Source: an uncultured Alphaproteobacteria bacterium (GTDB lineage Bacteria > Pseudomonadota > Alphaproteobacteria > Rhodobacterales > Rhodobacteraceae). Taken from it: a stretch of DNA of 64,000 nucleotides. Position numbers and translations under genes: made by a program. Positions 14,468 through 61,525 of this stretch are shown here, piece by piece (position 1 is the first letter of the stretch; each line of letters opens with the position of its first letter). A model generated the notes under the pieces. The model was not told the DNA's origin and ran no database searches. It worked only from the letters and a program-made list of their open reading frames with translations. Where the stretch lies: contig CAKMYZ010000013.1 of the NCBI GenBank assembly GCA_929200255.1, positions 49,989-113,988 on the forward strand. The letters are read 5' to 3'.

Positions 14468-15247
14468 ATGAGGCTGATTTGCCCCAACTGCAACGCAGAG
14501 TATGATGTTGCGGATGATGTGATCCCGCAGGGCGGACGCGATGTGCAATGCTCCAGTTGCACCAAGACGTGGTTTCAAACCCACAAGGCCGTGGTCCCCC
14601 CACCAGAGACATCCTCTGGCCTGCTTAGCCCAGCGCCAAAATCCGAAGGTAAGTCCGTCGAGATCGGTGCACCCACAAGTGCTGCAACACCAGAGCGTAA
14701 GCCGCTCGACAGTGCAGTTGCCGATATCCTGCGCCAAGAGGCCGCGCATGATGGCAAGGGCCCGGCTGCGGCGGAAGAGCCCCGGACACTGGACAAGCCT
14801 ACCGCCGCTTCTGCCGAAAAGATCGATGCAGACCAGACCCGGAAGCGTATTGCATCCATGACCCAACAAGAGGGCAGCACATCCTCAACTACTGAAATTG
14901 CGGCAGCCGCAGACACAGCAGCAAATCTGCGCGCCGTGCCGGATATTCACGAGATCAACGCAGCACTGCGCGCTCGTGCCGAGGCAAGTGACACCTCCGG
15001 TTTAACGGCAGCCGAGAAGGAAGAAGCACAGCAACGGCGGGGCTTTCGCCGTGGGTTTTTCTGGGTGCTGATCCTGATCGCAATTCTGATCCTGCCCTAT
15101 ATCTTTGCAGAACAGATCACTGAGAACCTACCGCAAACCCGCCCCATCATGGCATCATATGTTCTGACAGTGGATCAGCTACGTGTCTGGCTGGAAGCGC
15201 AGGTTGGCAACATTCAGGATGTGATTGCTGGTTTCACGTCAGGCTAG
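14468..15247 (+). CDS. MJ0042-type zinc-ribbon, single-pass membrane protein
   Basis: The protein starts with a zinc ribbon RLICPNCNAEYDV...VQCSSCTKTWF with C5, C8, C28 and C31, the MJ0042/zinc_ribbon_5 pattern. A long low-complexity acidic linker of about 160 residues follows, then one membrane helix near residues 197-216 and a short C-terminal periplasmic part. Proteins of this plan are common in alphaproteobacteria next to ftsEX, but their role is unclear. Its TAG stop lies inside the left end of the 109-bp dispersed repeat, so the last residues may have been altered by the repeat's arrival. Confidence 0.8.
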   Translation: MRLICPNCNAEYDVADDVIPQGGRDVQCSSCTKTWFQTHKAVVPPPETSSGLLSPAPKSEGKSVEIGAPTSAATPERKPLDSAVADILRQEAAHDGKGPAAAEEPRTLDKPTAASAEKIDADQTRKRIASMTQQEGSTSSTTEIAAAADTAANLRAVPDIHEINAALRARAEASDTSGLTAAEKEEAQQRRGFRRGFFWVLILIAILILPYIFAEQITENLPQTRPIMASYVLTVDQLRVWLEAQVGNIQDVIAGFTSG

Positions 15248-15352
15248 AGCATTTCGACTTGAACCTGCATCGCCATTCGCCGCCTTTCACCTGCGGCTCA
15301 AACGCGATTGGCGATACTTGATGTGCCGAGTGAAAGGCGAAACGCTTTAGAG
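15244..15352. repeat. 109-bp dispersed repeat, copy A
   Basis: This segment matches positions 60607-60715 over its full 109 bases with nine mismatches and no gaps by my count. Its ends form an imperfect inverted repeat: AGAGCATTTCGACTT on the left against AAAGCGTTTCGCCTT, the complement of the right end. That makes it MITE-like or REP-like. The left end contains the TAG stop codon of the zinc-ribbon gene. I see no reading frame inside and no clear target duplication. Confidence 0.85.
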
Positions 15353-15461: not shown

Positions 15462-18107
15462 TCAGAACTGATCAAGTAACCTGCGTAGATAGTCACGCTC
15501 AAGCTCCGGGCGGTTCTGTTCCGCTGACCTGCGGCGGATCTCGCCCAGCAGTTCTTCTGCACGGCGGTTGATTTCTTCACGCCCCAGCAACTCCTGATCA
15601 GTGCCAAGCTGACCGGTGTTGCCCATCTCACGGCCCAGAGGGTCACGTTGGCCGGGAATCGGACGGCCAGAGGCCTCGCCCTGCTCAGATCCCTGTCCGG
15701 GTTCAGCACTCTGGTTTTCCGCCAGCGCTTGACTCAATTCACGCATACCATTGCGCAGTGCATCCATGGCCTCGGCCTGACGGTCAATGGCTTCGGCCAG
15801 ATCGCCATTGCGCAGCGCCTCTTCGGCGCCTTCCATTGCATCCTCGGCACGCTCAAGCGAACGGCGGGCGATGTCACCGGCATCGCCATCCAGGTTTGGC
15901 AACCCATCACGCTGGCGCTGCAACTCTTCGCGCAGGGCTTGCTGCCGGTCCGCCAGACTGCGTTGATCACCTTCGCCACCAGCACCGTCACCGCGTTGCT
16001 CACCGCTTTGGCTGTCACGGCCCACGCTTTGGCCGCGACCCTGCTGTCCACCCTGGTTTTCCTGGCCGCCATTCTGGCCCGGCTGACCCTGGCCTTGCGG
16101 TTCACCAGAGCGCTGTCCTTCACCCTGCTGCCCCTGCTCTTGGCCTTGCTGGCCCTGCTGACCGGGCTGTTGCTGCTGCTGGCCCTGATCGCTGGGGTTA
16201 AACTGATCTTGCAGGTCACTGAAGCTGTCGTCCGACAGTTCTTCCTGATCACGCAGGGTATCGGCCAGATCCTGCATCGATTGCTCGCCCGGTGTCCGTG
16301 GGCCATCGCCGCCTTCGCCTTGTGTGACTTGCAGGTTCTCCATCATCTGGTTGAGTTGCTCCATCAGCTCTTGCGCCTCGGCCATGCGGCCTTCCTGCAT
16401 CAGTTCTTCGATGCGATCCATCAGCGCCTGCAACTCATCCATGGACATGGTTTCGCCCTGCTGACTATTATCAGCCTGATCTGTCCCGTCGTTGGGTTCC
16501 ATCTCTTCGGCAAGCATGCGCAGGTAGTCATCCGTTGCTTCGCGCAGCTCCTGCATCAACTCTGCAATCTCTTCGTCGGACGCCCCATTGCGCATCGCCT
16601 CAGCCAACCGTTCCTGCGCGCGGCGCAACCGTTCACGCGCATCGGCAAGGCGACCATCCTCAAGCTGGATCGCCAGCTCCCACAAAGCTTCGGCCACCTC
16701 TGCCTGTCCTTCATCGGTCATGCCGAACGCGGCCATGTTATCAAGGCGGCGAATAATCGTGCGCAAACGCAGATATGTCGTCTCATTCGAGAACAGCCCC
16801 TCTGGGAGGTGCGAAATCGCGCGCAATATCTGGTTCACCCGGCGGGCGTTGGCCTTGGACCACAACAGATCCCGACGTTGTTCAACAATCGCACGCGCAA
16901 AGGGTTGGAAAAAACGGCGACCGGGTAAGATCACAGGCTCAGCCAGTGAGATGCCCGTCTGTTCGGCCGCATCGGTGACCGCGAACTGCATGATCACGGG
17001 CAAGTTTGCCAACGGATGTTTGCTCAGGTCATCAACGAGGAATTCATCAAAATCCGCACGATCGCCCGTAAAGGGCATTGGAAGGTCCAACACCAGCGGC
17101 GCCATCGGGTCAGGATCAATGACCAAACCGTGCTGCCGCTCGACCGCCGCCAGATCGAGGGTGATCGTTGCTGTCCCGAACTCGACCCCGTAGTCATCAT
17201 ACGCTGTGAACGGCTGGGACAGCTCACCCATCGCATCAGCCTCTATTGGGCCGGTCAGCTCGACCGTGGGTACCTGATCCTCAACAGCGGTCACCTCCCA
17301 AGAGGTTTCCGTGTCACCGGCAATGGTCAGCCTGCCCGACTGCGCGACCTCAAACTGCTGTTGGGCGTCTGATGCAGCACCTACTTCATCAACGCGTCCA
17401 GACACGGTTTCGGCCACGGTCAATGCACCCACCTCACCATAAAGGCGCAAGGTGACCTGACTGCCCTCTGGCACAAGCAGGGGCCCCGTGGGAATGTCAT
17501 TGAGGTAAAGCGCGGGCTTCCCGGTGTAGGCGGGCGGTTCGATCCAGCCTTCCCAAACCGGGCCGGTTGCGAGGGTCTGCTCGCCGCCTGTGACAATCTC
17601 ACCCACGGATGTGACGCGGAACAGTGAACCAAACAGCAATGCCGTGACAAAGAACAAGAGTGCCATAAACCGCAACCCGTAGGGGTCGCGGTCCGACACC
17701 CGCAAATCCGGCTCGATCGCGCGGGCATCCTTGGTGCGTTCGGCCATGCGGGCCATATGGGCCTGCCACACGGCTTTGGACGCGTGATCACCGCTGCCGA
17801 TGGCCTGCACATCAGCCACCGCCGCAATCGGACGGCCCGGCAAGGCAGCATCCACACGCTCAACCGCCTCCGCCGTAGAAGGCACGCGAAACTTGCGAAG
17901 ACCCCAGATCAATGTGGCAATCAGGCCGATGACGGATATGACAGCACTGGCCCAGAACACCTCGAGCGGCAGATAATCCTGCCAGCCCATCATCAACGGG
18001 GCGAGAGCCAGGAACAGAACCGTCCAGAAAGGCCAGAAAGCGCGTACAGCCTCTTCGGCCACCATACCAGCCCGCGTAAACGCGACCGGCAGGCGCAAAT
18101 GGCGCAT
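15462..18107 (-). CDS. DUF4175 / TIGR02302-family large membrane-anchored protein
   Basis: This 881-residue protein has two or three N-terminal membrane helices (about residues 20-75 and 145-170). A beta-rich periplasmic part with WEGWIEPPAYTGKPALYL and a helical part with long charged coiled coils follow. Between roughly 640 and 760 it becomes extremely rich in Q, G and E (runs such as DQGQQQQQPGQQGQQGQ), then ends in a helical segment. This is the arrangement of the alphaproteobacterial TIGR02302 family, whose function is not established. It lies upstream of nothing obvious in its own direction and downstream of lysA by 52 bases. Confidence 0.85.
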   Translation of the reverse strand: MRHLRLPVAFTRAGMVAEEAVRAFWPFWTVLFLALAPLMMGWQDYLPLEVFWASAVISVIGLIATLIWGLRKFRVPSTAEAVERVDAALPGRPIAAVADVQAIGSGDHASKAVWQAHMARMAERTKDARAIEPDLRVSDRDPYGLRFMALLFFVTALLFGSLFRVTSVGEIVTGGEQTLATGPVWEGWIEPPAYTGKPALYLNDIPTGPLLVPEGSQVTLRLYGEVGALTVAETVSGRVDEVGAASDAQQQFEVAQSGRLTIAGDTETSWEVTAVEDQVPTVELTGPIEADAMGELSQPFTAYDDYGVEFGTATITLDLAAVERQHGLVIDPDPMAPLVLDLPMPFTGDRADFDEFLVDDLSKHPLANLPVIMQFAVTDAAEQTGISLAEPVILPGRRFFQPFARAIVEQRRDLLWSKANARRVNQILRAISHLPEGLFSNETTYLRLRTIIRRLDNMAAFGMTDEGQAEVAEALWELAIQLEDGRLADARERLRRAQERLAEAMRNGASDEEIAELMQELREATDDYLRMLAEEMEPNDGTDQADNSQQGETMSMDELQALMDRIEELMQEGRMAEAQELMEQLNQMMENLQVTQGEGGDGPRTPGEQSMQDLADTLRDQEELSDDSFSDLQDQFNPSDQGQQQQQPGQQGQQGQEQGQQGEGQRSGEPQGQGQPGQNGGQENQGGQQGRGQSVGRDSQSGEQRGDGAGGEGDQRSLADRQQALREELQRQRDGLPNLDGDAGDIARRSLERAEDAMEGAEEALRNGDLAEAIDRQAEAMDALRNGMRELSQALAENQSAEPGQGSEQGEASGRPIPGQRDPLGREMGNTGQLGTDQELLGREEINRRAEELLGEIRRRSAEQNRPELERDYLRRLLDQF

Positions 18108-59973: not shown

Positions 59974-60140
59974 TGTCATTCCATTCTGTCTCGCATCCCA
60001 CCCCTGCGCCCCCACAACAATTGCCGACCCATGACGCCCGCGACCTGACCAAAACTGGCAATCAGGCACAAATCGTGCTGGACGATCAGACCTACACCCT
60101 GCGCATCACCCGCGCAGGCAAGCTGATCCTCACAAAATGA
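59973..60140 (+). CDS. hemP: Hemin uptake protein HemP
   Basis: The 55-residue protein ends QIVLDDQTYTLRITRAGKLILTK, the HemP signature (YxLRxTRxGKLILTK), while the N-terminal half is proline- and histidine-containing. HemP family members are small proteins tied to heme uptake regulation in many proteobacteria. The ATG overlaps the stop of the previous small gene and its own stop overlaps the next gene by four bases. No heme receptor or transporter lies in the window. Confidence 0.87.
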   Translation: MSFHSVSHPTPAPPQQLPTHDARDLTKTGNQAQIVLDDQTYTLRITRAGKLILTK

Positions 60141-60610
60141 ACACTCATGCCCACAGCCCCGGCAGGGCCTCTGTTGGACAGTTGAGCGAGCAACCGGCGT
60201 TTGAGGCTTGCATCGTCACGTATCTGCGGCTCTGGGCCGATGGGGAAGAGAGCCAAATCCGGCTGCAGCAGATGCTGATAGAACTGTGCGGCCCCACTCG
60301 TGGTGTTCACATGACCAAAAGATGGGCAGAGCTGATTGCACTGTTTGCCCGGTTCCATCGTCGCGGCATCACACATCATTCATTGGACTACCCTCGCCTT
60401 GGTGCGGATGAAGCATGGTTTGCCAACTTCATGGCGACCGCAACCACCGGAGAACGCGAAGATGCGCTGATGCTGGCGACGCTAATGATCAGGCCCGACA
60501 TCGCCCCGATGCTCGCAGATCTGGCACGGCAATTCGGCCTGGGTTTGACGCAAGGGCTGGCAAAACAGAATTTTGCAGTCGGGCGGGGTGCCCCTGAAAC
60601 GCTGCACTAG
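60137..60610 (+). CDS. Unknown protein in the hemP operon
   Basis: The 157-residue soluble protein contains TYLRLWADGEESQIRLQQMLIELCGPTRGVHMTKRWAELIALFARFHRRGITHHSLDYPRLGADEAWF, mostly helical. Histidines in the middle could bind heme or metal, but I see no defined motif. It overlaps hemP by four bases. Its TAG stop lies inside the left end of the second 109-bp repeat, so the repeat has set the C-terminus. I do not recognise the family. Confidence 0.6.
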   Translation: MNTHAHSPGRASVGQLSEQPAFEACIVTYLRLWADGEESQIRLQQMLIELCGPTRGVHMTKRWAELIALFARFHRRGITHHSLDYPRLGADEAWFANFMATATTGEREDALMLATLMIRPDIAPMLADLARQFGLGLTQGLAKQNFAVGRGAPETLH

Positions 60611-60715
60611 AGCATTTCGACTTGAACCTGCATCGCGAGTCGCTGCCTTTCGCCTGCGGCTCAAACGCGATTGGCAATACCTGATGGGCCGTGTGAAAGT
60701 CGAAACGCTTTAGAG
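60607..60715. repeat. 109-bp dispersed repeat, copy B
   Basis: This is the second copy of the element at 15244-15352 (nine mismatches over 109 bases). Its ends AGAGCATTTCGACTT and, read from the other side, AAAGCGTTTCGACTT form a 13/15 inverted repeat. It fills almost the entire gap between two convergent genes. Its left end provides the TAG stop of the hemP-operon gene and its right end the TAA stop of the minus-strand NlpC/P60 gene. Confidence 0.88.
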
Positions 60716-61525
60716 CCGCTTGCGCACCAACAGATCACCATCGCCCTGTGCGGCGATGCGCGTGATGGCAACGTCAATGGGTTCATAGCGTGTCGCCATG
60801 TGATGTGCATTGGCGTGGATCATGGTTTCGCCATCGACCATCATCCCCACATGCCCATCCCAAAAAAGCAGATCACCGCGCTCATATGGGCCGTCCACGG
60901 CCTGCCCCAGCCCATCGCGCTGCATATCACTATCCGCAGGGCAGCTTTGCCCGCAGGCGGTCAGTGCAGCGGCGACCAGTCCCGAACAATCAATCCCAAG
61001 ACTAGAGTTTCCGCCCCATAGATAAGGCACACCGAAATGCAGCTGCGCGACAGCTGTGGGATCAGTGAAAGGGCGATCAAGCGGACGCAGATGCTTTTTG
61101 GGAACAAAGCCTACATTGGTTTCAAAGAACTTGCGGCGCTCATCCAGTACACGAATCCGTGCGCCAAACGGCAAGTGCAAAAGGTCCGCTGATTTGAAAC
61201 TCTCTTCTGTGTAGGCATGTGTGGCCAGGGATCCAACAGCATGGGTCGCGGCGGCACTGTCGTTCAGATCCGCCTCGACCACATAGCCAACATACCCATC
61301 AGATGCCTGCACAAAGGCCCAGCCTTTCAGCGCTTCATAAACCGTAACTTCTGTCCCATGCAAAAGCTGGCGATCACGCGGCCCACCGGGACTGGCACGA
61401 AGGTCGACAACGGGGCGGGCTATCTGCATTCCCCAACCTTCGGTAAAGCTGTCAGCCTCAACCTGCCCGGCCAGATTCATTGCCGCCACGCGCCCATTGG
61501 CCGGTGTCAGCCGGCGATCAGTCAC
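60710..61525 (-). CDS. NlpC/P60-family (C40) cell-wall peptidase
   Basis: The 271-residue protein has two SH3-like repeats (about 35-85 and 110-150) and a C-terminal NlpC/P60 domain with GVPYLWGGNSSLGIDCSGLV (catalytic C180), GDLLFWDGHVGMMVDG with the catalytic histidine, and MIHANAH. Such enzymes cut gamma-D-Glu-diamino acid bonds in peptidoglycan. No signal peptide is seen, so it may act in murein recycling. Its stop lies in the 109-bp repeat and its start overlaps the aminopeptidase gene by four bases. Confidence 0.88.
   Translation of the reverse strand: MTDRRLTPANGRVAAMNLAGQVEADSFTEGWGMQIARPVVDLRASPGGPRDRQLLHGTEVTVYEALKGWAFVQASDGYVGYVVEADLNDSAAATHAVGSLATHAYTEESFKSADLLHLPFGARIRVLDERRKFFETNVGFVPKKHLRPLDRPFTDPTAVAQLHFGVPYLWGGNSSLGIDCSGLVAAALTACGQSCPADSDMQRDGLGQAVDGPYERGDLLFWDGHVGMMVDGETMIHANAHHMATRYEPIDVAITRIAAQGDGDLLVRKRL

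Follow-up and report, generated by a model that had tools for sequence, protein, structure and literature searches.

The 109-base repeat that occurs twice in the 64,000-nucleotide stretch of DNA analysed here (the window, from an uncultured member of the Rhodobacteraceae) is, to judge from its sequence and that of its relatives, very probably a non-coding insertion element of 105 bp, bounded by terminal inverted repeats, which enters Y-TA-R sites and duplicates their TA; its movement is likely due to a transposase supplied in trans, and in kind it would be a MITE like ERIC and RUP. The initial annotation had placed the repeat at 15244-15352 and 60607-60715, and the two copies indeed align without gaps and with 9 mismatches (100/109 identical). 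Copy 2 is recovered by BLAST at 92% identity with an E value of 2.2e-39, which excludes a chance match. The element proper is somewhat shorter than had been reported and consists of TA, 101 nt and TA (105 bp), with C before it and G after it; the final AG of the 109 bases lies outside the element, and its match in both copies is a coincidence of the target sites, each of which reads CTAGAG. A covariance model built from 54 copies (R2) was run over the whole window and detected no copy beyond these two; the two extra rows are copies 1 and 2 read on the opposite strand. The parts of the two copies, with stem arms as given by the R2 alignment and the family structure, and the neighbouring genes are as follows (genomes and loci are denoted here by G and L numbers).

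14468..15247, plus strand: gene with its stop in the left end of copy 1; PF13717 zinc ribbon (Pfam)
15244..15268, plus strand: outer stem left arm of copy 1, pairing imperfectly with 15326-15350
15245..15349, plus strand: copy 1 (TA + 101 nt + TA), flanked by C 15244 and G 15350; empty site in G073, decayed remnant in G028
15245..15246, unstranded: left TA of the duplicated target of copy 1, the first 2 bases of the upstream gene's TAG stop
15326..15350, plus strand: outer stem right arm of copy 1
15348..15349, unstranded: right TA of the duplicated target of copy 1
15462..18107, minus strand: convergent neighbour of copy 1; PF13779, DUF4175 (Pfam)
60137..60610, plus strand: gene with its stop in the left end of copy 2; 157 aa, no Pfam match
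60607..60631, plus strand: outer stem left arm of copy 2, pairing imperfectly with 60689-60713
60608..60712, plus strand: copy 2 (TA + 101 nt + TA), flanked by C 60607 and G 60713; empty site in G028
60608..60609, unstranded: left TA of the duplicated target of copy 2, the first 2 bases of the upstream gene's TAG stop
60689..60713, plus strand: outer stem right arm of copy 2
60711..60712, unstranded: right TA of the duplicated target of copy 2, within the minus-strand gene's TAA stop (60710-60712)
60710..61525, minus strand: convergent NlpC/P60 gene (Pfam) with its stop in the right end of copy 2

Both copies are intergenic and lie between convergent genes, in agreement with the earlier statement that the stretch between the ends is not a gene, and 105 bp is too short for a transposase gene and below the 600 bp taken as the upper limit for MITEs. 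The proposed inverted ends are real, as end pairs with end in the predicted folds of both copies. Copy 1 begins inside the TAG stop of the zinc-ribbon gene, and copy 2 holds the stops of both of its neighbours, the 157-aa gene and the NlpC/P60 gene. At the NlpC/P60 orthologues of two other genomes (G017 and G060) we noted two adjoining matches with a stop between them, for which an assembly error is possible.

That these sequences were inserted is seen from sites that are empty in other genomes. The site of copy 2 is empty in G028, where it reads CCTGAAACGCTGCA-CTA-AAGCCGCTTGCGC (core CTGCA-CTA-AAGCC, i.e. CTAA) and where the NlpC/P60 protein is 89% identical; the filled site in the window reads CTGCA-CTA-(101 nt)-TA-GAGCCGC. 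The site of copy 1 is empty in G073 (GTCAGG-CTAG-GTT; DUF4175 protein 92% identical) and filled in the window as GTCAGG-CTA-(101 nt)-TA-GAG. G028 retains only a left-arm remnant of about 25 nt at this site, from which we conclude that the insertion of copy 1 is probably older than the split and subsequently decayed. At a third site, an element with a right end 2 nt short lies in the DUF4175 stop codon of G027, where G015, G077 and G024 have plain CTAG. Set against the empty CTAG or CTAA, the filled CTA-(101 nt)-TA-G indicates that TA is duplicated at a Y-TA-R target, so that a target-site duplication is seen at all three loci (copy 2, copy 1 and the G027 element), in a pattern that arises equally from duplication of TA and from insertion beside a TA carried by the element itself, which cannot be told apart. 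Among 119 copies, a set that includes weak matches and leaves out loci shorter than 2,900 bp, L016-L018 and the G062 loci, TA is present on the left in 86, on the right in 89 and on both sides in only 66, which tells against the proposed mechanism; 64 of these 66 have Y before and R after.

The copies also bear marks of recent spread. In a set of 80 copies from the 13 genomes with two or more, the nearest relative lies within the same genome for 42, compared with a mean of 8.2 and a maximum of 19 over 2000 permutations, and the best copy pairs in G033 are 99% identical. Some copies are common to different species or genera at one site, and therefore not all of them are recent movers; owing to such orthologous pairs, the copies in the nearest-relative, context, fold and end sets are not all independent.

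From two copies within the window it had been supposed that there would be many per genome. The window's genome (G000, 92 contigs) yields 4 copies by BLAST (86-100% identity) and 6 strong copies plus weak ones with a covariance model built from 8 copies (R1), so that the two copies are not alone but the copy number in this genome is modest. Two of the weak copies (L016 and L017) occupy sites orthologous to matches in G028 (L101 and L102). Other Rhodobacteraceae also carry copies: within the genus, R1 matches 27 of 56 genomes, among them G000 (E <= 0.01), and R2 matches 61 of 248 genera of the family, each represented by one genome (E <= 1e-5) for which at most 15 candidates were scored, a number reached in 6 genomes. 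The core word of the element occurs in 82 stretches in named genomes, and among the 80 of these that were listed nearly all bear what we take to be Rhodobacterales names; the remaining stretches listed come from one Hoeflea bin, one Neomegalonema bin and bins whose only name is Alphaproteobacteria. An exact 21-base word of copy 1 had no match in the genome-contig collection, and copy 1 had none in the plasmid and phage collections.

We examined gene context for 82 copies with a simple codon-score gene caller, leaving out weak or short matches of the genus search. The copies are found between convergent genes in 46 cases, tandem genes in 29 and divergent genes in 5, with 2 one-sided, and 3/82 share more than 60 nt with a called gene. 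In 40 of the 82, as in both window copies, at least one neighbour's stop codon falls within the terminal TAR, so that the copy supplies and restores it. An initial control gave no significance for this stop fusion (p 0.21) and weak significance for the convergent arrangement (p 0.024); this control was biased because its loci centre on the two convergent window sites, and it was replaced by one based on accessible YTAR sites. At such sites stop fusion is expected in 27% of cases for flanks of the same loci and in 33% for the window, convergent placement in 35% and 25%, respectively, and divergent placement in 18-50%, and the excess of stop-fused copies has p values of 1.9e-5 and 0.0031. The excess is moderate, and CTAG-like targets coincide with stop codons in any case; target choice together with loss of promoter insertions can explain the placement, and no special targeting of stop codons is needed. 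In two instances, L074 (G033) with L098 (G073) and L011 (G000) with L085 (G027), members of different subfamilies are found at or near orthologous gene ends, hinting that the same convergent gene ends are hit repeatedly by insertion.

The element folds from end to end as one hairpin, with an outer stem of 25 bp, a middle stem of 12 bp and a tip hairpin of 4 pairs, separated by conserved internal loops. On both strands the window copies fold better than their shuffles, with z scores between -2.7 and -4.2. In an alignment made from sequence alone of 54 hand-picked copies (A3), 80.9% of cells are paired compared with 68.6 in shuffles, and double changes are found at 34 of 41 pairs compared with 26.0 (0/500 shuffles). 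The structure counted here was taken from a single member together with the family consensus and is thereby favoured on paired cells and, less so, on double changes; kinship among the copies inflates such scores as well. The covariation score is 0.368 compared with 0.164 shuffled, and falls to 0.139 or less when the partner is slid by one to three columns (A3). All three helices add to this signal; RNAalifold run on A3 gave the inner pairs only. The outer stem was placed manually before counting, and its 25 columns have 76.5% of cells paired in the 54 copies and double changes at 22/25 pairs. Because A3 was hand-picked and leaves out most of the near-identical G033/G024 copies and others (e.g. 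L065, L084, L100 and L103), the fold test was repeated on 80 copies aligned separately, with the same result: 79.6% paired compared with 67.3 shuffled (maximum 68.5 in 300 shuffles), and double changes at 36/41 pairs compared with 28.1 (maximum 33). Sequence conservation in A3 is highest at the ends, around the internal loops (CGCTGCC, opposite AACGC) and beside the bulge.

The exceptions to pairing indicate at what level the fold is maintained. A functional RNA made from one strand should favour G-U over other mismatches. G-U and A-C exceptions are about equal, numbering 115 and 130 in the 54 copies and 188 and 208 in the 80 copies, so that pairing is seemingly kept at the DNA level or on both strands. 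It is possible, if rather doubtful, that the compensatory changes are mechanical, arising by template switching in a quasi-palindrome at replication, in which case no selection on the fold is implied. Correction of this kind would act on DNA and leave no strand bias, as observed, but it would tend to erase the internal loops and the part of the one-sided bulge that are nearly invariant.

A GANTC word, mostly GAATC, occupies family positions 24-28 (A3), at the junction of outer and middle stems, in about half of the copies, whereas the window copies read GCATC there. GANTC is the site of CcrM methylation. We do not claim that GANTC and CcrM gate transposition, as the enrichment is weak (59/119 copies, compared with a shuffle mean of 44.9 and a maximum of 58).

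A full-length copy that encodes a transposase between the same ends, which the initial annotation had proposed to look for, was not found within a search that covered three transposase families (PF13358, PF01797 and PF13340) and the arm matches listed in six genomes. The IS630-type DDE_3 domain (PF13358) is absent from G000, G033, G024, G027, G022 and G078; it is present in 4/14 high-copy genomes (E <= 1e-3), exceeding the cut-off in 2. Within the genus it is missing from 5/6 high-copy genomes, and the other one, G062, has a match below the cut-off. The RAYT domain Y1_Tnp (PF01797) has matches in 4/23 genomes and is absent from G000, G033, G027 and G022, each of which carries several copies of the element. 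The IS427-type PF13340 is present in 6/10 genomes and absent from G024, G027, G022 and G235, and the inverted repeats of three PF13340 loci contain no such ends. None of the IS630-, RAYT- and IS427-type genes is supported as the partner, since each is absent from one or more genomes that have recent copies. To our knowledge, ERIC has no known partner either.

A loose comparison of the ends (12-mer, at most 2 mismatches) gave many end pairs, and element-like pairs around transposase genes numbered 27 compared with 69 for a reversed control pattern, a count from which loci shorter than 3,000 bp were left out. None of the pairs are alike over more than 14/22 bases, and we therefore regard them as chance pairs. 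Among the matches listed in the arm search of six genomes, most are pairs 82 bp apart. We inspected 26 unpaired arms and assigned 9 to diverged long copies (six with E values of 2e-17 to 2e-5, the others being L232, L239 and L241) and 11 to short forms of 39-53 bp (L229, L230, L233-L238, L242, L244 and L245), while 3 are weak (L240, L246 and L247) and 3 are without a class (L231, L243 and L248). The inspected arms included no kilobase-spaced pair with good ends other than one chance-like pair, and the 1.1-kb arm pair in L233 encloses no recognisable transposase-like frame. The short forms, which include loci L045, L108 and L109 of G062, are without the inner hairpin. In G033-type genomes some of them fit a long form deleted between two GCGTTA words, and in G062 there are 53-nt matches at eight places, of which these three loci were read.

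These results bear on whether the family is a classical MITE, derived by loss of the interior of a known IS630- or IS427-type insertion sequence that is still at work as a full copy; we judge this to be unlikely. Duplication of TA and a YTAR or CTAG-like target are typical of IS630 and of some IS5/IS427 members, and the Y-TA...TA-R arrangement of the copies with TA at both ends is as such an origin would have it. The RUP element of pneumococcus, moreover, is attributed to IS630-Spn1 in passages of PMC2229807. What argues against it is the distribution of the genes just described, with DDE_3 missing from the window's genome and most high-copy relatives in the genus and PF13340 present in only some carriers, as well as end pairs no commoner around transposase genes than in the control and unpaired arms that are mostly copies of the element itself.

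Another explanation is that the repeat is a structured non-coding RNA, or a 3'-end processing or terminator element, kept for its function as RNA and dispersed incidentally. The strong covariation, the conserved internal loops and the placement of copies at 3' ends and between convergent genes are all consistent with this idea, yet the clean empty sites and clustering within genomes, the absence of strand preference among pairing exceptions and the absence of a terminator-like site in a scan of copy 1 make it quite improbable. By eye, L005 and L009 directly adjoin an ordinary terminator-like stem with a T-run. Rfam 15 has no match at the gathering threshold in the window and none even at E <= 1 at six loci; with both window copies lying between genes, the element was not found to be part of a conserved RNA gene or coding sequence, an outcome that the initial annotation had considered.

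A REP or REPIN element moved by a RAYT (Y1) transposase would likewise be palindromic and intergenic, recur at 3' ends and have a CTAG-like foot, but is very improbable given the absence of Y1_Tnp from G000, G033, G027 and G022 and the long terminal inverted repeats, which flank a duplicated TA rather than forming two separate short hairpins. Of the MITE- or REP-like character proposed in the initial annotation, we therefore retain the MITE-like part, based on the inverted ends, the TA duplication and the dispersed copies, whereas a strictly REP-like nature is unsupported, several carriers having no gene of RAYT type.

For the insertion element that we favour, the following course of events may be proposed. 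A transposase supplied in trans would recognise the conserved ends TA-RAGCRTTTYG. The hairpin would act at the DNA level, in extruded or single-stranded form, when the element transposes or is replicated, a role suggested by the pairing exceptions without strand bias. Because the ends carry TAG or TAA and would regenerate a stop codon, while insertions into promoters would be lost, copies would persist mainly at 3' ends; there the hairpin is predicted to be transcribed in the 3' untranslated region of the neighbours and may affect mRNA decay. More tentatively, the family could as a whole be the ERIC analogue of the Rhodobacteraceae, in which an enzyme reads the DNA hairpin, so that the fold rather than the sequence is inherited, lineage-specific stems surround the same loops and CTAG stops are rebuilt by the ends.

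In kind the element is a MITE like ERIC, a likeness drawn from descriptions without sequence alignment, and as a family it appears to be new: we found no description of it in the titles and abstracts of the open-access literature on repeats of Rhodobacteraceae, Roseobacter, Rhodobacterales or Rhodobacter. ERIC, in passages of PMC2229807 and PMC10969869, is a non-autonomous element of 127 bp, an end-closed stem loop with TA termini and a target duplication, mostly intergenic, in some cases at gene 3' ends, and variable in copy number. The present element shares with it the short length, lack of autonomy, end-closed stem loop, TA termini, target duplication, mostly intergenic position with some copies at 3' ends, and variable copy number. 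It differs in length (about 105 bp), in host (an alphaproteobacterial family instead of enterobacteria), and in its nested stems with conserved internal loops, link to stop codons and subfamily-specific stem sequences. RUP of Streptococcus pneumoniae (107 bp) is similar in size, TA target, terminal inverted repeats and intergenic position as described in PMC2229807, which also names IS630-Spn1 as its proposed partner, whereas we found no partner for the present element, and most of the high-copy genomes searched lack DDE_3.

Other families are alike in part. The Correia/NEMIS elements of Neisseria have terminal repeats, TA ends, hairpin transcripts and two size classes (PMC2229807, in part); the element described here shares the terminal repeats, TA ends and two size classes, and differs in host and length, its short class measuring 39-53 bp. 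The CIR repeats of Caulobacter and Brucella are also alphaproteobacterial, of about 110 bp and intergenic, and the GANTC found in about half of our copies is a further point of likeness. CIR RNAs consist, in the portion of PMC2229807 that treats them, of two arms joined by a linker, unlike the single end-to-end hairpin seen here, a comparison made by description; the two-arm form with exposed GANTC that characterises CIR repeats is not seen in this family. Br-REP1/2 of Bradyrhizobium, according to passages of PMC5082802, are repeats in overlapping 3' UTRs of convergent genes, similar in placement, but are 20- to 40-nt palindromes of another consensus.

In the literature searched we found no small mobile repeats described for marine Rhodobacteraceae, and the present family is both widespread (61/248 sampled genera) and strongly structured. 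With a stop codon at its terminus in 40/82 copies, the element would rewrite the 3' ends of many mRNAs. Genomes like G033, with copies 99% identical and no IS630 or RAYT gene, allow the question of what moves MITEs without a partner, ERIC among them, to be tested in bacteria that can be cultured, and the covariance model allows annotators to mark such repeats.

Some similar copies are found in different genera with flanks in common (L025 with L180; L029 with L097 and L197). The genes beside them match the Pfam families of a type IV secretion operon, namely CagE_TrbE_VirB with a TraG P-loop, SLT transglycosylase, T4SS, VirB8 and CagX. Conjugative elements may thus carry copies from genus to genus. 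A copy resembling those of the VirB locus is also present on a 3.7-kb contig of the bin Hoeflea sp. MAG-81 (L296), a name presumably outside the Rhodobacterales, either by plasmid transfer or because the contig was mis-binned. In several genera, strongly conserved copies lie inside the VirB-type operon (L025, L097, L029, L180, L197, L277 and L332), and these are possibly domesticated or hitch-hiking on conjugative elements. Two of these loci, L277 (Loktanella) and L332 (Roseobacter MED193), have two copies each, 2.2 kb apart.
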